This document shows positions 2,950 through 23,125 of a DNA stretch of 44,697 nucleotides, piece by piece (the stretch's first letter is position 1; each line of letters opens with the position of its first letter). The position numbers and the translations under genes are program-made. Below the pieces are notes generated by a model that was not told where the DNA came from, made no database searches, and saw only the letters and a program-made list of their open reading frames with translations. This DNA comes from Oscillatoriales cyanobacterium CG2_30_40_61 (GTDB lineage: Bacteria; Cyanobacteriota; Cyanobacteriia; Cyanobacteriales; Microcoleaceae), in assembly GCA_001873365.1 (NCBI GenBank), contig MNYZ01000102.1:3505-48201 (forward strand), read 5' to 3'.

Positions 2950-3558
2950 ATGGCTCGATATAGAGGCCCCCGTCTGAGAATCGTTCGTCGTTTGGGCGAT
3001 TTACCTGGATTAACTCGGAAATCCCCCAGAAAGGCCTATCCCCCTGGACAACACGGCCAAGCCCGTCGTAAACGTTCAGAATACGCAGTCCGGTTAGAAG
3101 AAAAACAAAAACTGCGCTATAACTACGGCGTTTCCGAGCGTCAGTTATTGCGTTATGTCCGTAAAGCTCGTCGCGCCGCCGGTTCCACGGGTCAAGTCTT
3201 GCTGCAAACCTTGGAAATGCGTTTGGATAACACCATTTTCCGTTTAGGAATGGCCCCCACAATTCCAGCGGCTCGTCAGTTAGTCAGCCATGGTCACGTG
3301 ACTGTGAATGGTCATCGCGTTAATATTCCTAGCTATCAGTGCAGACCTGGTGAAGTAATTGGGATCAGAAATACGGAAAAATCCCGTGAATTGGTCAAAG
3401 CCAATTTACAATATCCCGGTTTAGCCAACGTTCCTAGCCATCTGGAGTTAGATAAAACACAACTGACTGCAAAGGTAAATAGCGTCATTGAACGGGAATG
3501 GGTGGCTTTACAAATTAATGAACTGTTAGTCGTTGAATTTTATTCACGTCAAGCCTAA
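2950..3558 (+). CDS. rpsD: 30S ribosomal protein S4
   Basis: The 202-residue protein starts [20 protein letters not shown] and has the expected length and layout of bacterial/plastid S4: an N-terminal rRNA-binding region ([20 protein letters not shown]), a helical region ([17 protein letters not shown]), and an S4 RNA-binding fold ([20 protein letters not shown], then [14 protein letters not shown]). S4 is a primary 16S rRNA binder that nucleates assembly of the 30S body. The ATG follows a CGGAG ribosome site about 9 bases upstream. As is usual in cyanobacteria it stands apart from the large ribosomal protein operons. A terminator-like hairpin follows at 3583-3630. Confidence 0.98.
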
Positions 3559-3582
3559 GAGTTCCTCACCGTTCTATTTTGT

Positions 3583-3630
3583 GTGGGGCGTTATCAATGA
3601 TTAAAAATAACGTACCCCACCTACTTTTTA
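3583..3630 (+). terminator. rpsD terminator
   Basis: The stem GTGGGGCGTTAT (3583-3594) pairs with ATAACGTACCCCAC (3607-3620) with a two-base bulge, and a run of T follows (3624-3629). It lies 25 bases after the rpsD stop and before the convergent moaA end. Confidence 0.65.
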
Positions 3631-3645
3631 TAATCAATCAGGCTG

Positions 3646-4632
3646 CTATCCTCCAATTTGGGACATGGTACGGGCATAATTTCCCGTTGTACCGGAGTCC
3701 CGTTGTTTAAAATTAATATCGGGTTTAATTCCTAATAGGTTACTTACCTTTTCTCTTAACTCCTCAAACGTCGCACCCTGACGCAGAGGAGTTTTTAAAT
3801 CGATTTGTCCGGTTTCATTCAGTAAACAAGGTCGTAACCAACCATCGGCGGAGAATCTCATCCGGTTACAGCGATCGCAAAAACATTCAGACATCTGACT
3901 AATAAATCCTAATGTTCCCTTCGCTCCGGGTATTTGAAATACATCCGCAGGGCCGTTTCCCTTGACCTGTGAGGCTTCTAAACCCCATTTTTCTCGAATT
4001 TGTTGGCGTAATTGTTCTGAGGAAATCCAACCGCGATCGGCAAATAAATCGTTATTTCCAATGGGCATAAATTCAATAAATCTAACGTGCCATTGTCGTT
4101 CTATTGTTAGTTTAGCTAAATCCAAAACCTCATGATCATTCACCCCAGGAATCACCACGACGTTTAATTTTAAGGGATTAAAACCCACTTGATAAGCCGC
4201 TTGTATTCCCGCCCAAACCTGTTGCCAACGGCTGCGCCCTCGGTTGCCGATAATTTGATCAAAAATATCAGCATCAAGGGAATCTAAACTAATATTAATT
4301 CGTCGCAGTCCAGCATTATATAAATCCTCTGCCATTTCTGCTAATAAAAAGCCATTAGTGGTCATTGCCACATCTTTTGTTTCAGGAAAAGCATTAATTT
4401 GTTTAACTAATTCTATCACCCCGGGACGCAATAAAGGTTCACCTCCGGTTAAGCGAAATCGAGTAAATCCAACGGGGATAAATACCTCTTGTAACAGGGT
4501 TAAAAGTTCATCCAGAGTTAATAAATTCTGTTGTAGAATATAATCCATTTCTGTGCCTTCGGGCATACAATATTGACACCGGAAGTTACAACGGTCAATC
4601 AAACTAATACGGAGATAATCAACGGGGTTCAT
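3646..4632 (-). CDS. moaA: GTP 3',8-cyclase (molybdenum cofactor biosynthesis protein A)
   Basis: A radical SAM enzyme that with MoaC converts GTP to cyclic pyranopterin monophosphate, the first step of molybdenum cofactor synthesis in the cytoplasm. The N-terminal [4Fe-4S] motif is C15-x3-C19-x2-C22 ([14 protein letters not shown]), followed by the SAM-binding LTGGEPLL. The second, substrate-binding cluster motif is C-x2-C-x13-C ([20 protein letters not shown]). The protein ends in Gly-Gly after YARTMSQI, the conserved C-terminal tail needed in the family. The length of 328 residues is normal. The ATG start is two residues before the conserved [12 protein letters not shown]; no Shine-Dalgarno is obvious. 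No other moa gene is adjacent. Confidence 0.96.
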
Positions 4633-4730
4633 GGATTTTTAGGAGAATAATAGAATTCTGTTCTCTCTATATTATGTCTAATTTTTCTATTGTAGGGTGA
4701 GTCAGAATTATGATTGTCATAGATATTCTT

Positions 4731-4823
4731 AGGACTTAGCACCAAACCGGGTTTTTTAGATAATATGTGGGTCACAACCAAGTATTTTCACAAAAAAAAA
4801 CCCGGTTTCTGTGCGTAAGTCCT
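4731..4823. repeat. MITE-like repeat, AGGACTTACGCAC family, copy A
   Basis: A 93-bp foldback between moaA and dnaG. The right end reads GTGCGTAAGTCCT; the left end AGGACTTAGCAC lacks one base pair of the perfect inverse. The inner arms are AAACCGGGTTTTTT and AAAAAACCCGGTTTCT. Its reverse complement matches copy B (14522-14633) through the middle, including GTGAAAATACTT, GTTGT and ACCCACATATT, so the two are the same element in opposite orientation. Confidence 0.8.
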
Positions 4824-4844
4824 GATTGAAAAAACTTATTACCA

Positions 4845-6788
4845 TTAATTTATATTTATTCCCCCCAAGGGAACAGAAATTAAATCATGAAATTGAGTAT
4901 CTCTAATTCGTTTTAATTCCCACATCCATTTGGTTTCTGCGTCGATTTGTTGATAATATTTTTGAGCTAAATTCTGGTGTTGAGCAATATCGGTTTCTCC
5001 CCATAATTTTAATGCCATATCTCGTCTTTTTTGACAAATAACGGTTTCAATAGACGCAATAGAACTGCGAATAACTAATTGGGCGCGACAAATATCAATC
5101 TCCGTATGTTCATCCAGATAAAATAGATGATAAAATTGTTTAGTTTGTTGATTTTTATCTAAACAAACTTGTTGCAATTCCAGAATTAAATCCACCGGAT
5201 CTAAACTCTTTTGGGATCTTTCCTCAATTTGGGCAATTTCTCGCCATAAAAACCGATGATGAGCTAAACTAAACTGTAAATCCCTCGCTTCTAATCCATC
5301 AATAATTGTTGGACGATATTCGGGACAATGGAGATATATTTTGAGGAGTTTAACTTCTGCTTCTTCTAATAAGCTGCGCTCGGAGTTAATACTAAATAAA
5401 TTATCAGAAGATGGTTGATTTTTTCCTATTTCTAAATGGTGCTGATTTACTTGAGTTTGTAAATTTTTAGCTAAGAGCGAAATTAACCGATTTTGTCCTT
5501 GACTCAGAAGTTCAGCACAGTATTGAATATAGTGGGTGCGTTGCATTCCATTCTCAATTTTTTTCAATAATTCTACCATTTGTTTTGATACTTGCTGCGA
5601 CTGGGCAACGGTTTCTAGGTTTTTTCCAACTAATAATCGTTGAATTTGCCAATCTATCCAAAATGGCGCATCAACCAATAATTTTTGATAATCTTCGGCG
5701 GAATTATGAATTAAAAACTCATCAGGATCTTTGCCTGAAGGAATATTTAAAATTCTTAAATTAATATAACCTTGATAAGCTAGATCTTCAATTTCTCCGA
5801 TCGCCCGTTCAGCGGCTTTATTCCCAGCGGCATCTGCATCAAAATTGAGAATAATTTGTTTAGATTCTGTATACCGAACTAACTGCCGAACTTGATTTAA
5901 ATTTAACGCAGTGCCTAAAGAAGCCACAACATTTTCTATTCCGGCGGTATGTAATGCAATTACATCAAAATAGCCCTCCACAACAATCGCTTGATCTTGT
6001 TTACCGATGGCATTTTTTGCTTTATCTAAGGCAAATAAAGTCTTGCCTTTATCAAATAATTCGGTTTCGGGAGAATTGAGGTATTTTGGCAGTTCATCCC
6101 CTAAACTTCTGCCCCCAAATCCGATAATTTTTCCCTGACTATCATGAATTGGAATCATTAATCGATCTCTAAACCGATCATAATAGCCATTGCCAGTTTT
6201 TCTAGGGACAATTAACCCAGCTTTTTCGACTAATTCCGCCGGAAAATGTTTCTGTTCCACCAAATAATCATAAAGTGTTTCCCATCCTTGGGGAGCATAT
6301 CCTAACTGAAAATATTGAATTGTATTTTCTTTGAGATTTCGTTTTAATTTTAAATAATCTAAAGCTTGTAGTCCTTCCGGTTGTCTTAAAGTATATTGAT
6401 AAAAACCCGTAGCGATCGCCAAAATCTCATATAATTGTTCTCGTAAAGAAATCTGTCTCTGTAATTCCTGACGTTTTTCCGGTTCCAAAGTCTTAACTGG
6501 AACTTGATAGCGTTTTGCTAACTCTAAAACCACCTCGCTAAAAGAACTTTTATCCAAATCCATGATAAATTTAATCGCATTTCCCGCCGCCCCACATCCA
6601 AAACAATAAAACATTTGTTTGGTAGGACTCACGGTAAAACTAGGGGTTTTTTCATCATGAAAAGGACACAACCCGACAAAATCTTTCCCCCGGCGCTTCA
6701 AGGAAACTTTTTCGGACACGATATCATAAATATCTGCCCTTTCTTTGACTTGTTCTATGGTTTCTGGATGAATTCGGGGAGTCAGCAT
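4845..6788 (-). CDS. dnaG: DNA primase
   Basis: Synthesises the RNA primers for replication forks. The 647-residue protein has the full DnaG order: a CHC2 zinc-binding domain (C41, H44, C62, C65 in CPFHDEKTPS...FYCFGCG), the RNA-polymerase core with the YLNSPETELFDKG motif near 236-248, a Toprim fold (E271 in VVEGYFD; D317, D319 in DADAAG), and a C-terminal region (about 430-647) for helicase binding. The start at MLTPRIHPETIEQVK matches the family; no clear Shine-Dalgarno precedes it. The C-terminal domain is less conserved, as usual. It lies downstream of the toxin-antitoxin pair on the same strand with a 125-bp AT-rich gap containing TTAATTAATAA palindromes, so it probably has its own promoter. 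Confidence 0.97.
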   Translation of the reverse strand: MLTPRIHPETIEQVKERADIYDIVSEKVSLKRRGKDFVGLCPFHDEKTPSFTVSPTKQMFYCFGCGAAGNAIKFIMDLDKSSFSEVVLELAKRYQVPVKTLEPEKRQELQRQISLREQLYEILAIATGFYQYTLRQPEGLQALDYLKLKRNLKENTIQYFQLGYAPQGWETLYDYLVEQKHFPAELVEKAGLIVPRKTGNGYYDRFRDRLMIPIHDSQGKIIGFGGRSLGDELPKYLNSPETELFDKGKTLFALDKAKNAIGKQDQAIVVEGYFDVIALHTAGIENVVASLGTALNLNQVRQLVRYTESKQIILNFDADAAGNKAAERAIGEIEDLAYQGYINLRILNIPSGKDPDEFLIHNSAEDYQKLLVDAPFWIDWQIQRLLVGKNLETVAQSQQVSKQMVELLKKIENGMQRTHYIQYCAELLSQGQNRLISLLAKNLQTQVNQHHLEIGKNQPSSDNLFSINSERSLLEEAEVKLLKIYLHCPEYRPTIIDGLEARDLQFSLAHHRFLWREIAQIEERSQKSLDPVDLILELQQVCLDKNQQTKQFYHLFYLDEHTEIDICRAQLVIRSSIASIETVICQKRRDMALKLWGETDIAQHQNLAQKYYQQIDAETKWMWELKRIRDTQFHDLISVPLGGININ

Positions 6789-6913
6789 TGGGGATTAAAC
6801 TAGAATGATATGTCTTTATTTTGCCATAAAATACCCTTAATAATCCTTCTGATCTTTTGAGTGTGTTTATTAATTAATAACTTAATTAATAATTAGTCAA
6901 TTGATCACACCCT

Positions 6914-7348
6914 TTAAACACCCATATTTTCAATACTCCAATCTTCAAATCTCAACCCAGGAACTCGTTCAAAATCCTGTCGATTGCGTGTTACTAAAAT
7001 TCCATTATTTGCCATGACAAGAGCAGCGATGCGTAAATCTTGCGTACCAATCCGAATTTTTTGCCGCAATAATTCAAAATAACAATGATAAGATTCCTGA
7101 TCAAAATTTATCACATTAATAGTTTGATAATACTTTAAAGTTTCTTCTAATCTTGCGTAAGCAAATAGAAGCTCATCAGCAAATTTTGCTTTTTTAATTT
7201 GGTTTAAACGTCCATAAAACTGTTCTTCTACTGTAACAATAGTAACTGCAACTTCTTCAGGATTAACTGTCATAACTCGTTGTGTTACAACAGGACGTTG
7301 TCGTTGAAATAAGGAAATATGATCGGTATCTAATATCCAAAAACTCAC
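6914..7348 (-). CDS. vapC: VapC-family PIN-domain toxin
   Basis: A type II toxin-antitoxin ribonuclease. The 144-residue protein opens with the PIN motif WILDTDHISLF (D7), has E41/E42 in TIVTVEEQ, D104 in IGTQDLRIAA, and a C-terminal acidic cluster in TRNRQDFERVPGL (D125): the metal-binding residues of VapC nucleases, which cut tRNA or rRNA. It starts 5 bases after its antitoxin stop, so the two are translationally linked. Length and C-terminal LRFEDW are typical of cyanobacterial members. All catalytic positions are present, so it should be active, unlike the fragment at 2728-2907. Confidence 0.85.
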   Translation of the reverse strand: MSFWILDTDHISLFQRQRPVVTQRVMTVNPEEVAVTIVTVEEQFYGRLNQIKKAKFADELLFAYARLEETLKYYQTINVINFDQESYHCYFELLRQKIRIGTQDLRIAALVMANNGILVTRNRQDFERVPGLRFEDWSIENMGV

Positions 7349-7353
7349 TGTTT

Positions 7354-7719
7354 CTACTCCTCTCCATCAAGTTGACGATAATATTCTTCCGTTTCAGCAT
7401 CTCTTTCACGACGATAATCTTCAATATCTTTGAGCATCTCGTCAAAATAGGGATCATCTTTAAACATTCCTGCAAACTTCATCCAAGGATGTTCTGATTT
7501 GGGTAGAGGAATTTCTAGTTGCACAATTTCACCTTGTTTCAGAATAGCATTAACTTGTTCTAATAATTGTTCTAATGCTGCTTCTCGACTTGCACCCTTA
7601 GCTTTACAATCCAAACCTAATACTGTTACTATATATTCTTGATTTTGTTGTTGAATTAACACCGGATAAGTCAATTTGGCAATAGATGGAGATGACGCTT
7701 GAATTAAGTTGGCGGTCAT
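7354..7719 (-). CDS. Antitoxin partner of VapC (HicB-like N-terminal half)
   Basis: A 121-residue acidic-tailed protein just upstream of the PIN toxin. The first half (YPVLIQQQNQEYIVTVLGL, then ASREAALEQL) resembles the partial RNase H fold of HicB-like proteins. The second half (HPWMKFAGMFKDDPYFDEML then DIEDYRRERDAE) is the charged helical tail seen in cyanobacterial antitoxins that pair with PIN toxins, where it would wrap the toxin. Inference of antitoxin role comes from this tail and the 5-base spacing to vapC. A TACAAT box near 7753-7758 (read on the minus strand) is a likely -10 element, and the operon is probably autoregulated. Confidence 0.8.
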   Translation of the reverse strand: MTANLIQASSPSIAKLTYPVLIQQQNQEYIVTVLGLDCKAKGASREAALEQLLEQVNAILKQGEIVQLEIPLPKSEHPWMKFAGMFKDDPYFDEMLKDIEDYRRERDAETEEYYRQLDGEE

Positions 7720-7819
7720 AAAACTATCCTTTGATAATCTAATTCAGTCTTATTGTACACTATTTTAAGTTCGGAAAAAGCTATGATTCACGGGAGAAAC
7801 TGGGCTTTTAGCTCAGAAA

Positions 7820-7993
7820 TTAGCCCGGAATTTTTTTTAACTGGTGGTTATCTAAACTCAATGACGGAATTACGACGACATCTTGATCCTCTAATTCCTG
7901 ATCACTTAAAGTGTGAAAACGTTGGCGAAGTTGAGTTTGCAGTTCTCGAAACCGTTGAATTGTGTTTTCCTGGGAGTGATGCCATACAACCAT
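7820..7993 (-). pseudogene. 5' fragment (57 codons) of a PGM1-like carboxylate-amine ligase gene
   Basis: On the minus strand an ATG at 7993 opens a 57-codon frame reading MVVWHHSQENTIQRFRELQT, then DQDVVVIPSLSLD and QLKKIPG before a stop at 7820. I recognise the IPSLSLDxxxLxKIxG motif as the N-terminus of a long cyanobacterial ATP-grasp protein annotated as a PGM1-related peptide ligase, whose next residues should be HYEERLLFxLI or similar. That continuation is absent: after KKIPG the sequence runs directly into the promoter region of the toxin-antitoxin operon. A deletion removed the rest. Identification is from memory. Confidence 0.5.
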
Positions 7994-8078
7994 AATTCTA
8001 ACCTATTGAACCCGATATCTCTATGTTAGTTCAGGTGATTAACTTGATAGCAGTTTCGATAAGAATTGCAAGATTTTG

Positions 8079-9692
8079 TTACTTGAGTTCCCAGAGTCGT
8101 GATAGTTGATCAACTTTTTCTAATTGATAGTTTTCATTTTTTATGGTTTGGCGCAATTCTTGAGAGGGGCTAAAAACAAAAACCTTTGGCCCTATGGGGA
8201 GTAATAATAGATTGGGTTCGGAATTAACCATTAATAGTTTAATATCAGGGTTTAATTCATAACTCAGAGAAATAATATTCCCTAAATTTGTATAATCAAT
8301 CCCGTGATCAACAATGAGAGTGGCGGATTTATTTTGATTTAATTTTTGGGCAATTTGAGCAATTTCCTCACTGGGAACTTGATGCCACCAGCTTTGTGCA
8401 TTGGCACTCATACTAATAGAAATTAGGCTAAATGTGAAAACGATGGCTAGGAGCGATCGCCAAACTATTTCTCCATCAATTAAGGAATTTTTATTACTTT
8501 TAATATGAGTAAAAAATAGATAAGCCACAGCTAATTGAATGGCGGGAAAACAGGAAATCAAAAAGCGGGTTACCCCGGAACGTCCTCCCCCTAAAAGCAC
8601 ATCGGGTAAAGCTAACATTAAAAAAGGAACTAAAATAGATGTCCAAATAAATAGGCGAGTTTGTCGATTCGTTTGTTGGCTAATTTGAAATAATGCCGCC
8701 AGAATTAATAAAATAAAGGGGAGTCTGAGTAAATACATCTGAATACTATTGAAATCGAAGTTGATATCAACAAATACAGAAGTAAAACTCAAAATCCAAA
8801 ACTTGCTTAAATTTAGTAAACTGATGGAATTGCTTGACCAATTGGTAACATCCATCGCCCGTTGTAAATTACTGATTAAAATAATTAACCAAGGACTAAA
8901 AGCTAGAATTGCGATCGCAACAGCCCCTAAAAATTCTAATAATAATACAGAAAAAGGCAAGGGTTTTCGGTTTCTAAAAGATCGTGAAGATTGCATACTC
9001 AGTAACAGAATATAAGCCCCATGACCAATAATTGTTAACCCGAATAAAGCATGGGTATAGAGTCCAAAAATACAGGCTAAACTATAACCCGCCCAAAATA
9101 AAGGATGACGCCAACGAATCGCTTTTAGTAAGGCATAACCAGTAGCAATTACCATTAAGGTAAGTAAACTATATTGTCGGGCAGTTTGAGCAAATAAAAT
9201 ATCAAAGGGAGATAGGGCTAAAAAAGCCGTAGCCAGTAAAGCGGTTTGGGAAGATTGAAATAATTCCCCAGCCAATAAATACATAAACGGCAGGGAAATT
9301 AAACTAATTAAAGCGGGTAAAAATCGAGAAGCAATAATAGAATTACCAAACAAAAACATCCAGACCCGTGCTAATAAAAAATAAAACGGAGAATGTTGAG
9401 GATCTTCTTTCGCCAGGGAATTTAGGATATCTAGGGGGGTACTATTGGGTTTAAGTTGTTGATATTTGAGGAGATCAACCGGGTAAACCATCCGATTTTT
9501 ATAGAATTTTTGAGCAAATTCTTCACTCGTATATCCAGCAGCCCGTAGGTTAGTATAAACTTCATCATGCCAATAGATTTTTCCATCTAAAGCCACAAAC
9601 CGGAAAGCCACACCAATAATAATGACAACAATTAAAAATAACCTCAAAACATGAGGGCGAATTCTTTTAAAAAAGTTCCAGAGACGCCACAT
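8079..9692 (-). CDS. Membrane glycosyltransferase, family 39 type
   Basis: A 537-residue integral membrane protein with about ten to twelve hydrophobic segments, beginning at residues 17-34. The first loop carries the acidic motif WHDEVYT (D43, E44), the catalytic site of GT-C glycosyltransferases such as ArnT and protein O-mannosyltransferases, which use polyprenyl-phosphate sugars on the outer side of the inner membrane. HSPFYFLLARVWMFLFG and the second loop fit the same family. The C-terminal 110 residues are soluble (from QSWWHQVPSEEIAQIAQKL). The acceptor (lipid, glycan or protein) cannot be told. The gene is isolated, with no ribosome site of note. The ATG start is supported by the adjacent basic N-terminus. 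Confidence 0.85.
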   Translation of the reverse strand: MWRLWNFFKRIRPHVLRLFLIVVIIIGVAFRFVALDGKIYWHDEVYTNLRAAGYTSEEFAQKFYKNRMVYPVDLLKYQQLKPNSTPLDILNSLAKEDPQHSPFYFLLARVWMFLFGNSIIASRFLPALISLISLPFMYLLAGELFQSSQTALLATAFLALSPFDILFAQTARQYSLLTLMVIATGYALLKAIRWRHPLFWAGYSLACIFGLYTHALFGLTIIGHGAYILLLSMQSSRSFRNRKPLPFSVLLLEFLGAVAIAILAFSPWLIILISNLQRAMDVTNWSSNSISLLNLSKFWILSFTSVFVDINFDFNSIQMYLLRLPFILLILAALFQISQQTNRQTRLFIWTSILVPFLMLALPDVLLGGGRSGVTRFLISCFPAIQLAVAYLFFTHIKSNKNSLIDGEIVWRSLLAIVFTFSLISISMSANAQSWWHQVPSEEIAQIAQKLNQNKSATLIVDHGIDYTNLGNIISLSYELNPDIKLLMVNSEPNLLLLPIGPKVFVFSPSQELRQTIKNENYQLEKVDQLSRLWELK

Positions 9693-15560: not shown

Positions 15561-15738
15561 TTCAATGTAGGCGATCGCCTAAATTACAATCTTCTTTTTC
15601 TATCCTACAGGAGTTAGGGAAACAAAGGAATAATAGGGGAACAAATCACACCCGCTCCTTTGAGATTGAATCAATTCAAGGATGAGGACATTAACCTTCT
15701 CCAGCAGGAAAACTAGATTTCCATGATTTACAAATTGC

Positions 15739-15876
15739 TTAGGAGTGAAATGCTAAACCATAAACAACTCCATTATGTCCTGTAAAAGTTTTCTTAGATT
15801 GATATTTTCCTTGAGAATTCCGTTCCCAAACTCGAATTGTACCATCTGCACTCGCTGAAGCCAGCATAGAACTAGC
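15739..15876 (-). pseudogene. Out-of-frame WD40 repeat remnant, tail of the caspase-nSTAND gene
   Basis: In the frame different from the 15753-18338 gene, the minus strand reads ASSMLASASADGTIRVWERN, then KKTFTGHNGVVYGLAFHS and a stop. LASASADGTIRVW and FTGHNGVVYGLAF are a WD40 blade end and the start of the next. Only one blade's worth survives. The caspase gene's own frame overlaps this stretch and encodes unrelated residues, so the propeller was deleted and the joint is out of frame. Confidence 0.75.
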
Positions 15877-18338
15877 GGATCATCATCCCAAAGTAAACGC
15901 ACTACTTCCGAATTTTTAAACCCCCGTTTGGCAGTTTCAGCAGCTTTATTCCAATCACTAACTGTTAAAATCAAACTTTTTTGCCATGCTAAATTTGATT
16001 CCTCTTGTTTGAGCCACTTCTGTAACAAATCCCAACCCCGAACCAGATAATCATGGGCAGGCTCAACGGAGGATTCTCCAAGTTCTTGACTTTTAACAAT
16101 CAGACGAGCATTAACTAGGCGTTCAATTACTCCTGCAACACGCTGATTTTCCTGGGGATCTGCATAAACCAACTCCGATTCTGGTATCCGACGCCGGGCA
16201 ATTTCTCCACCTTCAATTGTGACCATTCGCAACATTAACCGTCGCAGGGTCATTTGGTGCGCTTCACCCGATACTTGACCAAACTCTTTGATCAGATTGT
16301 CATACTCCTCGGTCGCCCGACGGGTGAGTGCTCCGTTTACGCCACCGAGTTCCTGATAGTCTTGGATTCGCAAAGTGCGATCGCAACAATTCGGGTCTTC
16401 TCTCCATCGCCCGGCAAGTTTAATATAAAGTTCACTCAATGTGAAAGAAAGTAGGGGCAATGCTCCTGGAGTTTGCGCCAATTCATCAATTAACTGACCT
16501 ACTAACTCAGAGGGTTCAAAATGTAATGCTTGTTTGCAGGCGGGCTTTTCAATGGCATCTCGTAACTCATCGGAATTCATAATCCGAATCGGAAAACGGG
16601 CGTTTTGCCAATAGGGTGTTAAGGGACAATTATTAAAACGAGGTTCAAAATCTAAACGTAGGGTAATAACCAAATGAAAAGATTTAGAATTTTGTTCTAA
16701 AGCTATTCTGAAAAGGGATAGGAAGCGATACCATTTCTGTTGTTCTTCAGTCCCCGAAATCTGAGGATTCATGGTAATTAGTTCTTCAAATTGGTCAATT
16801 ACCAATAGGAGTTGAGTAGATGGATTAGCTTGACTCCATTTTTTAATGATGGATGTCAGGGACTGAGGGTTTTTTTTAAGCTCTGGGATTAGGGGTTTAA
16901 GGGTTGCTTGAATGGCAGCATAGAGATGATCTAGTTGTTTTTTTTCTTGGGGTTGATCACACAAGGATTGCAACTGATCCCAATAGTCTGCAATCAAAGA
17001 TAATTGGGTTTCTGGTTGGGCTAAATTCCAAGACCCAGCTAACTTTTTAATCTGATCTGATGTTGAGTTTGAGGATTGAACCTTTTGGTTATTAACAATT
17101 TCAGCTAACTGTTGATCTAAAAAGCTGACTTGAGTTAATTCAGTTATAAGATTTGGATTAACAACAGGAAGCAGGGTTTTTGCTAATTGGGTAAAGGGAG
17201 ATTTACCCGGTTGCATGGGATTGAGAATATAACAACCTTTCTGTTGGGAATCTCGCAGATTTGGTATTAATCCCGCTTTAACTAAACTAGACTTACCTGA
17301 ACCCGATGCACCAACAATAATAGTTAGGGGAGTGGTAAGTTTAAGGAGGCGATCGCTCAATTCATCTATCAAGGTTTGACGACCAAAAAAGAAGGGATGA
17401 TGTCTTTCTTCAAAGGCTTTTAAACCCCGATAGGGATTATTATTTTCATTGAGTATGGGTGCGGGTTGTAGCTGTTTCTGAAAATCAAAATCAGGTTGGG
17501 TAAAGATAAATTCGCCCTGATCGTATTCTACGCGCATAGAATGGAGTCCCGGTTTTTGATGTTCACCGCACAATTCACTAACTCGCTGTTCCAGATATAA
17601 ATATAACTCATGGGCTGTAATCACTTGATCGTGAATAAAATCCGCTTTATTTTCTAATAGTCCTTCTAGCAACCCCAAGGCAAAGGGAGAATGCAATTCC
17701 TGATTTTGATCGGTCATGCTACCCCGTTTGTCCTGGGCTAAGGTAGCAATATCTAATGCTTCTTGATCCTGGGCTGAGGAGGTAATTACTTGCCATGCAG
17801 GATAACGAATAAACCGATCATAGTGTTCTTTATAAACTGTTTTTAGGACGGGTATCATTTTGCGATGACCAGCCCAATTAAACATTCCCGCAAAGCAGCA
17901 GTCGAGGATAACTAATAAGTGATGACACCCTAATTTTTTCAGGGCTTCGCACAGATCTGTCATGGCTAAAAATGAATCTTGATTTTCTCCGTCTGCATCT
18001 TGGGGGACGAGATACCCGGCGGGGCCATCGTTACTATTACGGGGAATACCATGACCTGCAAAGTAAAAAATCAAGCGGTCGGTATCTGTGGGTTTAAGTT
18101 GTTTTAATAGGGTGTCATTCAGTAAGTTTTGTAGTCCGGTCAATGTGGCATCTTCCTCTAATAAAGAAATAATATTTTGAGGTTGATATCCATATTGAGT
18201 TTGAAGTAAATTGGCGATTGCTTTGGCATCACTCACAGGTGTTTTCAAGTTATGAATACTTTTATTTTTGTAATGATCAATGCCAATTACTACTGCTAAA
18301 TTGCGATCAAAGTTGGTTCTTTCATATTTCCAAGGCAT
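15753..18338 (-). CDS. Orthocaspase fused to an nSTAND1-type ATPase (WD40 propeller lost)
   Basis: Residues 1-280 are a caspase-like peptidase domain (C14, orthocaspase): catalytic His96 in YFAGHG and Cys148 in VILDCCFAG; orthocaspases cleave after Arg or Lys. NPYRGLKAFEERHHPFFFGR (301-320) opens an nSTAND1 ATPase with Walker A GASGSGKS (343-350) and Walker B LLVIDQFEEL (about 511-520), followed by a winged-helix-like region (AHDYLVRGWDLLQKW). This class usually continues into a WD40 sensor propeller of many blades. Here, after LLWDDDP (about residue 815), the frame reads unrelated residues over WD40-coding DNA and stops. GGAGG lies 9 bases before the ATG. The product would be a sensorless caspase-ATPase: inactive, constitutively active, or regulated otherwise. 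Confidence 0.88.
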   Translation of the reverse strand: MPWKYERTNFDRNLAVVIGIDHYKNKSIHNLKTPVSDAKAIANLLQTQYGYQPQNIISLLEEDATLTGLQNLLNDTLLKQLKPTDTDRLIFYFAGHGIPRNSNDGPAGYLVPQDADGENQDSFLAMTDLCEALKKLGCHHLLVILDCCFAGMFNWAGHRKMIPVLKTVYKEHYDRFIRYPAWQVITSSAQDQEALDIATLAQDKRGSMTDQNQELHSPFALGLLEGLLENKADFIHDQVITAHELYLYLEQRVSELCGEHQKPGLHSMRVEYDQGEFIFTQPDFDFQKQLQPAPILNENNNPYRGLKAFEERHHPFFFGRQTLIDELSDRLLKLTTPLTIIVGASGSGKSSLVKAGLIPNLRDSQQKGCYILNPMQPGKSPFTQLAKTLLPVVNPNLITELTQVSFLDQQLAEIVNNQKVQSSNSTSDQIKKLAGSWNLAQPETQLSLIADYWDQLQSLCDQPQEKKQLDHLYAAIQATLKPLIPELKKNPQSLTSIIKKWSQANPSTQLLLVIDQFEELITMNPQISGTEEQQKWYRFLSLFRIALEQNSKSFHLVITLRLDFEPRFNNCPLTPYWQNARFPIRIMNSDELRDAIEKPACKQALHFEPSELVGQLIDELAQTPGALPLLSFTLSELYIKLAGRWREDPNCCDRTLRIQDYQELGGVNGALTRRATEEYDNLIKEFGQVSGEAHQMTLRRLMLRMVTIEGGEIARRRIPESELVYADPQENQRVAGVIERLVNARLIVKSQELGESSVEPAHDYLVRGWDLLQKWLKQEESNLAWQKSLILTVSDWNKAAETAKRGFKNSEVVRLLWDDDPLVLCWLQRVQMVQFEFGNGILKENINLRKLLQDIMELFMV

Positions 18339-18441
18339 GGCTGAAAGTCCTCCAATATAATTGAGGTTTGAATTGAGTCCTAAAACCCTGTAAATAAAAA
18401 CGGTATTTTATGGAATTTCAGGAAAATTAAACTATCTAAAA

Positions 18442-20553
18442 CTACAAATTTTGCGTGATAGTAAAGCGCACTTCTTTGGTTAACCACTCCGCATTTGGAT
18501 CGGGTTTATAGCGCATAGAACGAGATATTAAAGGTGGATGATCAACATCAGCACCAATGGTTGAAAATAATTCATTCATTGGGTTAATATTCCCTTCTCC
18601 TTTTGTTGCTAATTTTTCATCTAGGAGAACATTCAGATCTCCTTTACTGCCTAAATCTTGATCTAGGGCGGGCAAAGTTAGCCATTGAAAATTAGCTAAT
18701 CCACGGGTTGCAAAGAGTTTTAGAGTTTCGTTAACTTGCTTATAATTGAGGCCGTTTGGTAATCCTGGTTCCAAATCAATCTCAATATCTTCTTGATTTT
18801 CTAAGGGATAAAAGACATCTTCACTGCCATTAATCGGAATCTGAGAAATTGCCCAGGTTGGCTCCAAATCCAAAATAACAATATTGAGAGGTTGCCCAGA
18901 ATTATTTTTAACTCGTAAACAAGCTGATTCTCCTTCTTTTAAGATAATCTGGTCTGGGTTTGCAAAGGGTTGTTTATTGCCATCTAATAATTCCATTTCA
19001 ATTTTTTGCTCTAATTTTGAGTTGGAATTATCCAGACTTTGTATGGCTTGATATTTTGCTAAATGAACTAAACGCTTAACTACGGTTGTACCCCCATTTG
19101 GATCATTAATTTTCAGGGGTAAACCTAAGTTTTTTAAAGGTGTTCCGCTACAAATTTCATACTCCCCATTTCTACCAACTGCAACTTGATAATCAGCTTC
19201 TTGATGATTCTCCGGTTGAACTTCTAAAACCCAACCATTCCCGATTAATGCTTGCCGCACAATCTCTAAAGCTTCTGTTTGTTTGTTAGCCAACTCCGGT
19301 GGTAGTTCATTCTCCAAAATCCCCGCCTGTTTTTGATTAAATAAACGCACACGACGCACTAATTCCACAGGTGCAGAAACCAAAATCGTAGGACAACCGG
19401 GTTCTATATTTCCTCGGATTTGAAAACCCCCAGTTTCCGGTAATAAAACTTTAGCAATAGATTGAGAAGCCTGAATATCTTCCAATTCCACAAGGGCTAT
19501 TTGCTGTTGCGGGTTAGAAAAATCCGTTGTACTCAGAGGATAAATAGCAAAGCGTGTACCTAAACTCAGTCCTTGGGCTAACCCCGCATCAAGGGTAATT
19601 TGGTTGCCATTAACGCTCATAACATTAACGCTATAAGGAGTTAGAATGCGATCGCTACCAAATACCGAACGATTTCCGTCACCGAGTAGCATTGGTAATT
19701 GTTGAGGAAACTTACTTTGAATTTGAGCGCAAATACGATGATACAAAGCGCTAAAACTAATTCCAGTATTACGAGTAGCCAGGGTATCCATCAACCAATA
19801 GGTTAAGGCTCCATGTCTTTCTGTACCATTCACCGCATATTCATAGGCAAATTCATTGGGCCGACAGGCGGCTAAAAGAACGTAATTCTTAGTTTGAGGA
19901 ACCCAAGAAACACCGCTATAGTTTTCGCTGGTTAATGCTTTCCAATTGTTAATAAGTTCCTGACGGTCAAACCCTAAACTTTCTGCGCTTCGAGATACCG
20001 TATCAATTCCTTCTCCACCTCGAATAGCCGCATCCCCTCGGGTCGCGCCCCCGGAGTGACAACTATCAAGAATTACGGTAACAATTAAGCCTTTATCGGT
20101 CATGCGTTTGAGCAGGGTTGCTAATTCCACATCTCGCAGATAACGACCGTCTTCATCCCCAATATCCATCGGCACAATACCTTCATCGAGTTGGTCAGTA
20201 TCCTTGAGTTCTGGATAGATAGTTGTCGCCCGTCCCCCATGTCCAGAGTAATAAATACAGACCTGTTCTCCGGCTTGGGCTAGTTCCGTAATGGCGTGAA
20301 ACTTCCCAACAATATTTTCACAGGTGGGCAGCAGGTCTGGAGTAATACTCAAATCAGAAATATCGGGATTTGGAGAAATTAATTTAACAATTTGTTCCGA
20401 TGAAATCTTCAGGGTTTTTAAGAAATAATCTCCCACTAAGTTAATATCGCGGACACATCCCTTGAGATTCTTATACATGGGATTCGGGATATAACCATCA
20501 ATTCCGATTAAAAGAGCATAAAAATTGTTTTTTTGTTCAGATAAATTAGGCAT
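18442..20553 (-). CDS. Orthocaspase (C14 peptidase) with long C-terminal region
   Basis: A 703-residue caspase-like protease. The p20-like domain (1-300) has the catalytic dyad His105 in IYYSGHGG and Cys165 in VILDSCHSGG, the classical metacaspase motifs. D163 is next to the cysteine and acidic residues would favour basic P1 residues. Residues about 310-480 look like a beta-rich region (ILTPYSVNVMSVNGNQITLD...), and 540-680 resembles DUF4384-like ligand- or surface-associated modules (ILKEGESACLRVKNNSGQPL NIVILD). It lacks a signal peptide, so it acts in the cytoplasm. CGGAG sits about 7 bases before the ATG. It lies between an M15 peptidase and a second caspase gene, all on the same strand. 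Family roles proposed include stress-induced cell death, but targets are unknown. Confidence 0.9.
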   Translation of the reverse strand: MPNLSEQKNNFYALLIGIDGYIPNPMYKNLKGCVRDINLVGDYFLKTLKISSEQIVKLISPNPDISDLSITPDLLPTCENIVGKFHAITELAQAGEQVCIYYSGHGGRATTIYPELKDTDQLDEGIVPMDIGDEDGRYLRDVELATLLKRMTDKGLIVTVILDSCHSGGATRGDAAIRGGEGIDTVSRSAESLGFDRQELINNWKALTSENYSGVSWVPQTKNYVLLAACRPNEFAYEYAVNGTERHGALTYWLMDTLATRNTGISFSALYHRICAQIQSKFPQQLPMLLGDGNRSVFGSDRILTPYSVNVMSVNGNQITLDAGLAQGLSLGTRFAIYPLSTTDFSNPQQQIALVELEDIQASQSIAKVLLPETGGFQIRGNIEPGCPTILVSAPVELVRRVRLFNQKQAGILENELPPELANKQTEALEIVRQALIGNGWVLEVQPENHQEADYQVAVGRNGEYEICSGTPLKNLGLPLKINDPNGGTTVVKRLVHLAKYQAIQSLDNSNSKLEQKIEMELLDGNKQPFANPDQIILKEGESACLRVKNNSGQPLNIVILDLEPTWAISQIPINGSEDVFYPLENQEDIEIDLEPGLPNGLNYKQVNETLKLFATRGLANFQWLTLPALDQDLGSKGDLNVLLDEKLATKGEGNINPMNELFSTIGADVDHPPLISRSMRYKPDPNAEWLTKEVRFTITQNL

Positions 20554-20591
20554 TTTTCTCCGGTTTTAAAATTTGGATACAAGGGTGGGTG

Positions 20592-20643
20592 GGCAGATTT
20601 TTCCAGACCTATTAATTAATAGGTAATACCCGGTTAATCTGCC
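20592..20643. promoter_or_regulatory. Nested palindrome upstream of the orthocaspase gene
   Basis: GGCAGATT (20592-20599) pairs with AATCTGCC (20636-20643), enclosing the perfect 16-bp palindrome CCTATTAATTAATAGG (20608-20623). It lies about 40-90 bases upstream of the orthocaspase start and after the M15 stop. It may be an operator, an attenuator or a terminator between the two; no T-run is adjacent. Confidence 0.45.
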
Positions 20644-20704
20644 AAAATTACTAAATAAAGGAGTAGAATTAATCTCTTTAAAACCCTGAAAAATAAATTA
20701 AAAT

Positions 20705-21619
20705 TCAAGCCAATTGTTGACGAGTTTCTGTGCCAACAATACCATCTGCTGTTAAATTCTTTTTCTGTTGAAATTCTTTAACGGCTTTGTCTGTCCCTGG
20801 CCCAAAAACGCCATCCGTTGACACGGTAATTCCTGCATTTTTTAAACATTTTTGCAGCCATTCTACGTCTGTTCCTTCCATCCATGGTTTACATAACCGT
20901 AGGACTCTGGGTTGTTCATCCCAAGGTGCTTTAGGAAATCCTTTGGCGGGGGAAAGGTTCAGTGCTGACTCGGTTTCGCCACCTCTGGAATAAATTCCAT
21001 CTTCTGTAATTCGTTGATTCGGATGATTTTTATTCCAAAGTTTTTGAAAGGCTAAAATAGCCGTGGAACGAATATCTTTAGTTCCGCCTCCTACATAATC
21101 AAAATGGGGAGGATCTCCGGCTAAAGGATACCAATTTTGAGCCATTAAATAGGGTTCCCAACCTCTGGGATCTTCAATATCAAGGGCTAATCCACTTTGA
21201 TGATTACTTGACCCTGGGACGGCGACAGGACTAATATTTTTGTACCAATTATAGAGCAACATTTGTTGGGCAATGGTACGATAGGAGGAGTTAATCACCA
21301 TGGTAATTCCTCGGGCTGCGATCGCTCTTTTTAATGCTTCTTTTGCCGGAGGTTGCACTAAAGGAAATGCCGCATCACCTAAATCAACATTCAGATCATC
21401 ACAACTGACTAAAGCATTAGGAATAACCAGGTTAATTTGATGAATGAGTTGTTGAGAAAGGGCATTAACAATCGCCGTAGATTCACCGGGGACATCTCGG
21501 ACTAAACCATTAAAACTAGCCCGAATGGCTGAACGTGATTCCCGTTCATAAAATTCCAAACAAGCTTCTATTTCAGGATTTGCTAAGAGATTTGGATGTT
21601 GATGTTCTGGATTGGACAT
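20705..21619 (-). CDS. M15-family peptidoglycan peptidase with peptidoglycan-binding tail
   Basis: A predicted zinc D-Ala-D-Ala or L-Ala-D-Glu type carboxypeptidase/endopeptidase acting on peptidoglycan stem peptides. The catalytic domain has SSYRTIAQQ (111-119), SSNHQSGLALDI with H140 and D147, and PPHFDY with H172, giving the two histidines and aspartate that bind zinc. A PG_binding_1 domain follows (about 238-304: LRLCKPWMEGTDVEWLQKCL...DGVFGPGTDKAVKEFQQ). There is no signal peptide, so release would need lysis, a holin or another export route. Start is ATG with AAGGA about 12 bases upstream. The binding tail closely resembles that of the lysozyme gene next upstream, so the two may have a common origin or target. 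Confidence 0.87.
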   Translation of the reverse strand: MSNPEHQHPNLLANPEIEACLEFYERESRSAIRASFNGLVRDVPGESTAIVNALSQQLIHQINLVIPNALVSCDDLNVDLGDAAFPLVQPPAKEALKRAIAARGITMVINSSYRTIAQQMLLYNWYKNISPVAVPGSSNHQSGLALDIEDPRGWEPYLMAQNWYPLAGDPPHFDYVGGGTKDIRSTAILAFQKLWNKNHPNQRITEDGIYSRGGETESALNLSPAKGFPKAPWDEQPRVLRLCKPWMEGTDVEWLQKCLKNAGITVSTDGVFGPGTDKAVKEFQQKKNLTADGIVGTETRQQLA

Positions 21620-21672
21620 GGTAATTTTTCCTTAATTTAAAGGTGTTTTGTTGTGTTTAATTTTTCTTGGGT

Positions 21673-21773
21673 AGGACTTACGCACCAAACCGGGTTTCTG
21701 AACGAGAAATTTAGATTTCATCCGCAAAATTAGGGTCAGAAACCCGGTTTCTTTTGTCTTGTGTGTAAGTCCT
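21673..21773. repeat. MITE-like repeat, AGGACTTACGCAC family, copy C
   Basis: A 101-bp foldback with ends AGGACTTACGCAC and GTGTGTAAGTCCT and inner arms AAACCGGGTTTCTG / CAGAAACCCGGTTTC. The central loop differs from copies A and B. It sits between the lysozyme and M15 peptidase genes and may interrupt their transcript. Confidence 0.85.
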
Positions 21774-21780
21774 GTTGGGT

Positions 21781-22683
21781 TTATAAACCTAGTTTTTTGA
21801 GTGTTTCACTCCCAGCAATACCGTCTACTGTTAAATTATTTTGCTGTTGAAACTGTTTAACTGCTTGTTGGGTTTGTCCTCCAAAAATGCCATCGGGTTG
21901 CAAATTAAATCCCGCGTTGACCAGGGCTTTTTGTAGTTGCTCAACGTCCTGACCTTGCATTAACGGTTGACCTGGTTCAGATAACCGCAAAACTCGTTGA
22001 GTTTCTGGAATTTTTTCTCCATCCCAAGGTTCACTTAAAAATAAAGAACGTTCGGCTCTGCGACGACGAGATAAACCATGTAATACCTGTCCTCCAGCTT
22101 TATCCCATCTCAAAAATTGATCCGCAGCCTCTTGATATTTTCCTAGGTTTAAAAGTTTTAACAAAGTTGACTCAAATAAAGCTCTGGCTCCGACGTTATA
22201 ACAAAAAGAAACTAAAGCCGAAAATTGATTATCATTAATGTCAATTTTTACCCCATCAAGAACGGAAATTTCATATTTTTCTAATTCTTTTTTCAGGCGT
22301 GCTTCTGCTTCGGGAATGGTCATGGTCATCCCTTCATAAACCCCTTCTGTAAATCCCCAACCAATTGTCCAGATATTAACGGGGTCACGATAGGACTCTA
22401 CATAAGTACCATTAGAACCTTGTTTTAAATCATGTAATCCTTCAAAGGATTTAATCAGTTTAATTCCTTCTTCATTAATCTTTCTAGTTGCAGATCTAGG
22501 TTCAACAATACCCCGTGATCCTATATCCTGATCTGGAATAATTTCAAAGGTTTCTGCTGAAGTGAATTGTAGGGTTTGAATCAGTCGTTGAATTTGTCCT
22601 TTAGTTTCCGTTACTTGTATAATTTGTTCTTCTTGAAACTCATAAATACTACCATCTTTGGCAATTTTAAGGGTTCGGTTCAT
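21781..22683 (-). CDS. GH24 (T4-type) lysozyme with peptidoglycan-binding tail
   Basis: A muramidase-like protein of 300 residues. Residues 1-60 (MNRTLKIAKDGSIYEFQEEQ...) form a small domain I do not recognise. An arginine-rich linker (GSRGIVEPRSATRK, 55-68) follows. The GH24 domain (about 70-225) has catalytic E81 in IKSFEG, D100 in YRDPVNIW and T106 in TIGWG; the E-to-D spacing is about 10 residues longer than in T4 lysozyme. The end LSRRRRAERSLF is the typical GH24 motif. A PG_binding_1 domain (about 240-300) shares RVLRL...DVEQLQKAL with the M15 neighbour. No signal peptide. AAGGAG lies 7-8 bases before the ATG. Phage endolysins have this order, but no other phage genes are nearby. Confidence 0.88.
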   Translation of the reverse strand: MNRTLKIAKDGSIYEFQEEQIIQVTETKGQIQRLIQTLQFTSAETFEIIPDQDIGSRGIVEPRSATRKINEEGIKLIKSFEGLHDLKQGSNGTYVESYRDPVNIWTIGWGFTEGVYEGMTMTIPEAEARLKKELEKYEISVLDGVKIDINDNQFSALVSFCYNVGARALFESTLLKLLNLGKYQEAADQFLRWDKAGGQVLHGLSRRRRAERSLFLSEPWDGEKIPETQRVLRLSEPGQPLMQGQDVEQLQKALVNAGFNLQPDGIFGGQTQQAVKQFQQQNNLTVDGIAGSETLKKLGL

Positions 22684-22936
22684 TCCTAAACTCCTTGAGA
22701 CGTTTCAGTCTCAGTAAAAATTGATCCTAAAAGTTGTCAATTTCTGCGGAAATGTAGAATCACCCTAACGTCTGCTTAATCAATAAAAAGAGTCAAAAAT
22801 TTGATTAAATTTTTTTTATTCAGTCAGTAAGTTGCTGTTAAATATTGGTCTCTTGGTTTAGTTTAACAATTGTCATGTATCAATCCAGGGTAAATTTACA
22901 AAACTTAGGAATTTATACTTATAGACCTAATCCAGA

Positions 22937-23101
22937 GATCCAGCGATTGAAATCGTGGCTACACAAACGAAGTCCGCCTGCGCGGACTATTAACCTCCTT
23001 TGCGGTGCGGGTTTATTCTTCAATTAACCTCCTTCGATCAAGGGTTTAAAACCCGCGCCGGCGGGTTTTGTTTGTGTAGCCACGGTTTCAACCGCTGGAT
23101 C
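22937..23101. repeat. MITE-like foldback with 32-bp inverted ends
   Basis: The ends start GATCCAGCG and end CGCTGGATC, and the arms (GATTGAAATCGTGGCTACAC and its imperfect inverse) match over about 32 bases with two mismatches. It belongs to the same family as 2206-2398. Nothing coding is inside. The flanking gap (22684-22936) is AT-rich and should hold the promoter of the lysozyme gene, not located precisely. Confidence 0.8.
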
Positions 23102-23125
23102 ACTGGATCTTTAGGGGTGGGAGTG

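Follow-up and report, generated by a model that had tools for sequence, protein, structure and literature searches.

The stretch of DNA analyzed here (the window: 44,697 nucleotides of contig MNYZ01000102.1, numbered throughout from the first letter of the window) belongs to a cyanobacterial genome assembly of 4.8 Mb in 119 contigs. Its minus strand carries a block of four genes, which encode two putative cell-wall hydrolases (GH24 and M15), an orthocaspase (CASP) and a caspase-nSTAND protein (CASN), together with the remnant of a gene for a hydrophobic protein (HYDN). The features of this block are as follows.

21781..22683, minus strand: GH24 muramidase gene, 300 amino acids; N-domain at about residues 1-65, linker, GH24 domain 69-220, PG_binding_1 243-298
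22480..22533, minus strand: GH24 linker, residues about 51-68; candidate orthocaspase sites R57-G58 and R63-S64, where cleavage is predicted
20705..21619, minus strand: M15 (VanY-like) peptidase gene, 304 amino acids; propeptide 1-38, M15 domain 39-230, PG_binding_1 249-303
21506..21619, minus strand: M15 propeptide; invariant C20 and candidate site R32-A33 directly before the catalytic domain; low confidence in the AlphaFold2 (AF2) model
18442..20553, minus strand: CASP orthocaspase gene, 703 amino acids; caspase domain 12-288, conserved tail
15753..18338, minus strand: CASN caspase-nSTAND gene, truncated, open reading frame (ORF) of 861 amino acids; caspase 12-268, nSTAND1 to about residue 801
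15739..15873, minus strand: WD40 remnant in another reading frame, bounded by both deletion junctions; 96% identity with the 3' part of the CASN gene of genome G006, which is intact there
15691..15740, minus strand: HYDN 3' remnant, about 50 bp

An earlier note on this DNA had described four ORFs on one strand, and both their positions and the domain identities proposed for them are borne out by our search. Pfam recognizes Phage_lysozyme (E 7e-41) and PG_binding_1 (E 1.6e-19) in the GH24 protein, VanY/M15 (E 3.4e-9) and PG_binding_1 (E 7.7e-18) in the M15 protein, Peptidase_C14 in CASP (E 1.6e-16), and Peptidase_C14 (E 7.2e-17) followed by nSTAND1 (E 1.3e-96) in CASN, with both caspases over the cut-off. 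The peptidoglycan-binding tail that the note had assigned to both wall enzymes is this C-terminal PG_binding_1 domain, and PHROGs groups the two hydrolases with endolysins. The profile of CASP matches solved metacaspases, and its residues 10-699 match the PADLOC caspase model PDLC02987 (E 4.4e-40); no PADLOC model matches the hydrolases or HYDN. Catalytic-type residues are present in all four proteins, as had also been claimed. The His-Cys dyad of CASP (H105 and C165) is unchanged across 23 aligned rows, and H140, D147, D169 and H172 of M15 are unchanged across 11 rows; both hydrolases have catalytic domains with conserved residue columns; CASN contains YFAGHG and LDCC, and GH24 contains SFEG, YRDP and WTIG. 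We take these residues to have the catalytic roles familiar from their respective families.

The genes are closely spaced, with gaps of 161, 151 and 103 bp (GH24-M15, M15-CASP and CASP-CASN, respectively) that correspond to 60, 57 and 115 bp in the relative G006 and to 60, 98 and 31 bp in G009. Purine-rich runs resembling ribosome-binding sites lie upstream of all four starts, in keeping with the earlier description, and a scan of the block found no terminator-like site convincingly separating the four genes. A promoter scan returned an uninformative 21 sites versus 19.1 expected, and an Rfam scan of the window returned no match. The proposed lack of signal peptides on the wall enzymes agrees with the first 40 residues of 25 GH24 and M15 homologues from relatives, in which the 19-residue Kyte-Doolittle mean does not exceed 0.78; the window proteins lie outside this set and are 90-92% identical to rows inside it. 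Phage structural, holin and tail genes had been reported absent nearby, and nine flanking ORFs indeed contain no such PHROGs family. The N-domain of the GH24 protein is likewise found in none of 82 viral GH24 ORFs, which have a median of five residues ahead of the domain. On these two observations we reject a prophage remnant.

CASN as found in the window is a shortened form of a caspase-nSTAND-transmembrane-WD40 protein, a point that the earlier note had missed. We mapped the damage against the locus of G006 (L001), in which CASN has 1618 amino acids and is 84% identical. Window positions 15869-20586 align with 3335-8115 of that locus, 15739-15873 with 1252-1385, and 15677-15740 with 359-422, revealing deletions of about 1.95 kb at 15869-15873 and about 0.83 kb at 15739-15740. 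The overlaps at these junctions are only 5 and 2 bp, and thus the deletions are probably not an assembly collapse of WD40 repeats. Together they removed the C-terminal sensor that is present in G006, including the membrane helix (hydropathy 2.65 in G006 CASN) and nearly all of the 14 WD40 stretches, as well as the 3' end of CASN and most of HYDN, and they left the final 39 or so residues of the window ORF out of frame. This alignment rules out an intact caspase-nSTAND sensor in the window, and a whole-genome search found no match to HYDN elsewhere in this genome. With its sensor deprived of the membrane helix and of almost all WD40 repeats, and with HYDN gone, the window copy may be inactive, mis-wired or mis-regulated.

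The arrangement itself is not confined to this strain. We searched 98 genomes, including the host's own, with GH24, CASP, M15 and CASN, and found the full-length GH24 type, defined as a match starting at residue 1-3, in 13 (G000, G006, G009, G011, G024, G039, G042, G047, G048, G052, G053, G061 and G079). In 12 of these 13 genomes, CASP resides 1.0-1.6 kb from a GH24 gene on the same strand, and the intervening space is filled by an M15 gene or, in G011, by a gene for a C39 peptidase with a peptidoglycan-binding (PGB) domain. The GH24 gene next to CASP in G047 is a second copy, cut by the start of its contig. CASN-type proteins come after CASP in several genomes. The earlier note had proposed a check for conserved co-occurrence and would have abandoned its idea had the set been unique to this strain; the order GH24, M15 or C39, and CASP recurs across genera and families, which rules out a strain-specific chance cluster.

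Within the genus, the GH24-M15-CASP set is present in three of 10 genomes (the host, G006 and G009), and G001, G004 and G008 hold other variants. Comparison of the window with G009 reveals an uneven pattern of divergence, with identities of 91% for GH24, 90% for M15 and 90-94% for the first 150 residues of CASP, versus 32-64% per 50-residue block over the rest of CASP and about 50% for CASN. The retention of the effectors and the catalytic start of CASP, while the CASP tail and the sensor differ, is as expected if tail and sensor recognize each other, as they may.

HYDN, though nearly lost from the window, is linked to these genes elsewhere. The protein has about 150 amino acids and consists of an N-terminal part, a linker and a hydrophobic C-terminal stretch such as AAGMLAPLLVSGLGLAPAIATLIATLVVKKIA, for which the 19-residue hydropathy reaches 1.93-2.09 in five rows. 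Searches of Pfam, NCBIfam and PADLOC yielded no informative family. HYDN adjoins CASN or CASP in many loci, and it is fused to the N-terminus of CASP in G020 (L017) and to the N-terminus of M15 in G040 (L034). Among the 98 genomes it occurs in 18, of which 16 belong to the 23 with a strong CASP match (E below 1e-100, the next best match being 9e-35; hypergeometric P 3e-11, uncorrected for relatedness). Searches of 50,697 phage records, of plasmids and of viral contigs gave no match to it. The AF2 model, itself poor, places two long helices at the C-terminus. A second Planktothrix CASP locus, seen in G009 and G001 (L029 and L030), carries HYDN and an nSTAND protein, with no wall hydrolase labelled.

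Partners of other kinds take the place of the two hydrolases beside CASP homologues. The adjoining genes for putative envelope enzymes encode C39_2-PGB, C39_2 alone, M74-PGB-GH19, M15 fused to a hydrophobic domain, and an LCAT-like lipase; in addition, a caspase fused to an alpha/beta hydrolase is found among these loci, and a patatin gene lies beside CASP in one Chloroflexi and one Syntrophaceae record. From 231 relatives we kept 80 CASP loci and counted 79, having dropped L109 for its split CASP. A same-strand envelope-type enzyme or HYDN is found within three genes and 5 kb in 31 of the 79, one of them through patatin alone. As a control we used 20 loci of other caspases from the relatives, none of which has GH24, M15, C39, M74, GH19-like, PGB or HYDN nearby; a single LCAT-like ORF was seen. 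Within 9 kb the counts are 32/79 for CASP and 1/20 for the control caspases (Fisher P 0.003, with loci that are not independent), a comparison that favours the CASP side because the label seeds were drawn from CASP loci and patatin, labelled only in two CASP loci, was not sought in the controls. Among 59 genomes, three (the query's own included) have LCAT homologues at E 1e-20, in each case next to CASP. In L052 (Nodosilinea PCC 7104), a DDE transposase ORF has apparently inserted into GH24: it stands between a shortened GH24 and a PGB fragment, next to M15 and CASP. CASP homologues also appear in archaeal, Acidobacteria-type, Chloroflexi and Syntrophaceae records of metagenome-assembled genomes (L080, L102, L106, L112, L113 and L120), where binning error is possible.

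A short linker feature is common to these unrelated partners. Directly ahead of the GH24 and M15 domains, between the two parts of HYDN, and between the LCAT domain and the C-terminal part of the LCAT-like protein, a basic residue precedes a small one, with variable positions on either side. The HYDN alignment column reads R/K and then A/G in 14/14 rows, and the LCAT column has R/K in 15/15 rows, followed by A/G in 14. Over six families, all 67 distinct linkers match [RK][GA] or RS, compared with 34 expected on shuffling each linker (identical sequences merged; L065 and three unlinked M15 proteins set aside; the pattern caught 10 of the 15 aligned LCAT rows). The shuffling P values are <0.0005 for GH24, M15 and LCAT, 0.0005 for HYDN, 0.013 for C39 and 0.036 for M74. 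Both junctions of the HYDN-M15 fusion bear the site. We regard [R/K]-[G/A/S] as a shared linker site at which cleavage is predicted.

The site resembles a segment of CASP itself. In the loop after the catalytic cysteine, which is the p20/p10 linker, R172 and R178 are invariant in 23/23 rows; the residue after R178 is G/A/S in 21/23 and R in two, and that after R172 is G/A in 16/23. According to published work, C14 members other than caspases prefer Arg or Lys at P1, the orthocaspase MaOC1 needs autoprocessing (PMC5756287), and docking with arginine at P1 has been reported (PMC8283722). The partner sites thus appear to fit the published preference of this protease class. As controls, the linkers between GH24 and PGB domains carry the motif in 1/14, and nine of 11 rows of M15 proteins not linked to CASP have no propeptide with Cys plus R/K, L151_4 being truncated and beside HYDN. 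Three further unlinked M15 proteins (L037_5, L038_6 and L039_1) have no linker site. We also considered a cysteine switch in the M15 propeptide, in which C20 is invariant over 11 rows; the AF2 model, with a predicted local distance difference test (pLDDT) score below 50 over residues 1-50, speaks neither for nor against it.

These observations suggest that CASP is the core of a modular suicide or conflict system, of which the block would be one version: the triggered orthocaspase would cleave latent envelope enzymes and the cell would lyse. We give this interpretation about an even chance of being correct. CASN, a sensor of the STAND type that also carries a caspase domain and is normally anchored in the membrane and equipped with a WD40 propeller, would detect a trigger and activate CASP, which would then autoprocess at its p20/p10 linker. 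Activated CASP would cut neighboring proteins at an Arg/Lys-Gly/Ala/Ser site between the N-terminal segment and the catalytic part, thereby freeing or activating the GH24 muramidase, the M15 endopeptidase and, in intact loci, HYDN. Through an opening that HYDN may make in the inner membrane, the hydrolases, which have no export signal, could gain access to the wall. The triggered cell would thereby lyse, most plausibly as abortive infection within a filament. The earlier note had guessed at a lysis or death module of a caspase and intracellular lysins triggered by an ATPase sensor. The recurrent gene order and the shared linker site partly favor that idea, with the correction that the sensor of the window copy has no membrane helix and almost no WD40 repeats and that its HYDN is gone.

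A number of findings weigh against this interpretation. No recognized envelope enzyme lies near CASP in 48 of the 79 loci, where the neighbors are CHAT, caspase, nSTAND, kinase or unlabelled genes. CASP is absent from the stretches examined in G039 (L020) and around the full-length GH24 copy of G047 on contig C19 (L007), both of which have GH24, M15, HYDN and an nSTAND ORF. The linker pattern alone is not specific, since the linkers between M15 and PGB domains match it in 12/14 through a conserved K-A, which weakens the motif as a predictor; the loose motif is also matched by eight of the 26 viral GH24 ORFs in which 15 or more residues precede the domain and, by chance, by two of the nine unlinked M15 proteins (L142_3 and L144_3). 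Another unlinked M15, L149_2, has the whole propeptide and no CASP in its 6 kb. Moreover, the full count of matching linkers comes from windows that were picked after viewing the sequences, and the rows are related. In its AF2 model the M15 propeptide is not packed, and the HYDN model is poor (pLDDT 44.9). Finally, sensor and HYDN are damaged or lost in the window.

We regard as unlikely the explanation that caspase and STAND conflict genes and domesticated endolysins merely share an insertion spot in defense islands and have no joint function. STAND, CHAT, caspase and transposase genes do mix freely around these loci, and G039 and the C19 copy of G047 keep GH24-M15 with no CASP. Mere hitch-hiking, however, would not lead one to expect an order and spacing that are fixed in 12 of 13 genomes, the fusions of HYDN with CASP and with M15, the conservation of an R/K-[A/G] column across unrelated partners, or control caspases of which only one in 20 has an envelope-type neighbor. 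A slightly smaller probability is given to lysis that serves development, such as filament breakage (sacrificial cells or hormogonium release) or cell recycling, rather than phage defense. Wall hydrolysis combined with protease activity fits a sacrificial cell in a filament, and many hosts are filamentous cyanobacteria, but the patchy occurrence within one genus, the divergence of tail and sensor between alleles, and the existence of relatives outside filamentous cyanobacteria all argue against a developmental role. Our preference for defense over development, which follows from the patchy and modular distribution, is a weak one.

It seems more doubtful still, indeed improbable, that the cell exports the hydrolases to attack other bacteria, with the caspases as regulators or immunity factors. 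PGB tails and endolysin-type domains would suit such a role, but none of the 25 homologues has an N-terminus resembling a signal peptide, and no export gene was found among the labelled neighbors. A different kind of alternative concerns this copy only and is compatible with the suicide-system interpretation: the block in this strain could be a decaying remnant with no present function. The two deletions that cut CASN and removed HYDN speak for decay, whereas GH24, M15 and CASP are still open and 84-91% identical to relatives. We consider decay a real possibility, albeit one that we would not bet on.

Several other features of the window deserve mention. Upstream of GH24, positions 22930-23108 hold a 66-nucleotide inverted repeat, 83% complementary with a 47-nucleotide gap, that has a counterpart at about 72% in G009 and looks like a small mobile repeat. 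A second, 18-nucleotide inverted repeat with 65 nucleotides between its arms lies at 21673-21773 in the gap between GH24 and M15; this gap is only 60 bp in G006 and G009, and the region is therefore probably a small insertion. At 6914-7719, two adjacent ORFs resemble, by eye only, a PIN-type toxin and its small partner.

The substrates of cyanobacterial orthocaspases in the cell have been a long-standing question, and the block supplies named candidates from recurrent gene sets, with a predicted residue in each candidate. If the proposal is true, the latent effectors under the control of bacterial caspases would come to include envelope hydrolases and a new family of hydrophobic proteins, and a direct route would lead from a caspase to bacterial lysis. 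We also entertain, more tentatively and with doubt outweighing belief, a bolder version. These loci might be inflammasome-like lysis operons, in which an NLR-like caspase sensor activates an orthocaspase, and the latter cleaves effectors of six or more unrelated families (the muramidase, the M15 endopeptidase, the C39 peptidase, M74-GH19, the LCAT-like lipase and HYDN) at a common Arg/Lys-Gly/Ala/Ser site. A caspase-gated membrane protein and latent endolysins would then dissolve the cell, and HYDN would be a new effector family of gasdermin-like or holin-like type.

The earlier note knew of no described system with this gene set. A full-text literature search, whose coverage leaves out most subscription journals and preprints, likewise found no description of the gene set or of its shared linker site, but close precedents have been published, among them canu, the NucA-trypsin systems and metacaspase-amidase fusions. 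In canu, a caspase is paired with a latent nuclease in antiphage loci (PMC12799240), and the likeness lies in the immunity setting and in the adjacent genes for a caspase-family protease and for an effector that stays latent until the protease activates it. The canu effector is an MBL-type (metallo-beta-lactamase) nuclease, and CanA has Ig-like domains (PMC12799240), whereas the block encodes envelope-directed enzymes and HYDN, and CASP has a different tail. Pfam scans of eight ORFs from the block and its surroundings found no co-encoded MBL-type nuclease. Kaur et al. (2020) describe an EAD1-linked lysozyme and a papain-like peptidoglycan peptidase with trypsins in NucA-trypsin systems, and a caspase with an alpha/beta hydrolase in VMAP systems (PMC7159879). 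These and the EACC1 systems resemble our loci in having lysozyme and peptidoglycan peptidase effectors, a pairing of caspase and alpha/beta hydrolase, STAND NTPases and multicellular hosts (PMC7159879); in contrast, Pfam recognizes no trypsin, NucA, MoxR-vWA or EAD in the block. With the EACC1-caspase model NF047832 of NCBIfam, CASN scores 73.2 bits and CASP 20.8 bits, both below the cut-off of 140.

Bacterial gasdermin and CARD-NLR-like systems, and LypABC as an NLR-like system of lysis control, share with the proposed mechanism an NLR-like ATPase and proteases that lead to lysis, and a membrane effector released by a protease would parallel HYDN (PMC13236601). The block differs in that HYDN is short with a predicted helical, hydrophobic C-terminus, that wall hydrolases are encoded, and that no gasdermin is recognized; Pfam, NCBIfam and PADLOC gave no gasdermin match in the scanned proteins, a result to which it must be added that sequence models may miss bacterial gasdermins and that no structure search was made. 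Phage holin-endolysin cassettes likewise combine GH24 and M15 endolysin-type enzymes that have no signal peptide with, possibly, a membrane partner, but no phage genes lie beside the block, viral GH24 proteins do not have the N-domain, and HYDN is missing from the phage records and viral contigs searched. Asplund-Samuelsson et al. reported metacaspase-Amidase_2 fusions and an operon with an amidase (PMC3501461), in which a caspase homologue joined to a peptidoglycan hydrolase was proposed to act in cell death. Those cases, as presented there, are single fused proteins or single operons, whereas the block described here belongs to a set of several genes that recurs and whose partners share a linker site.

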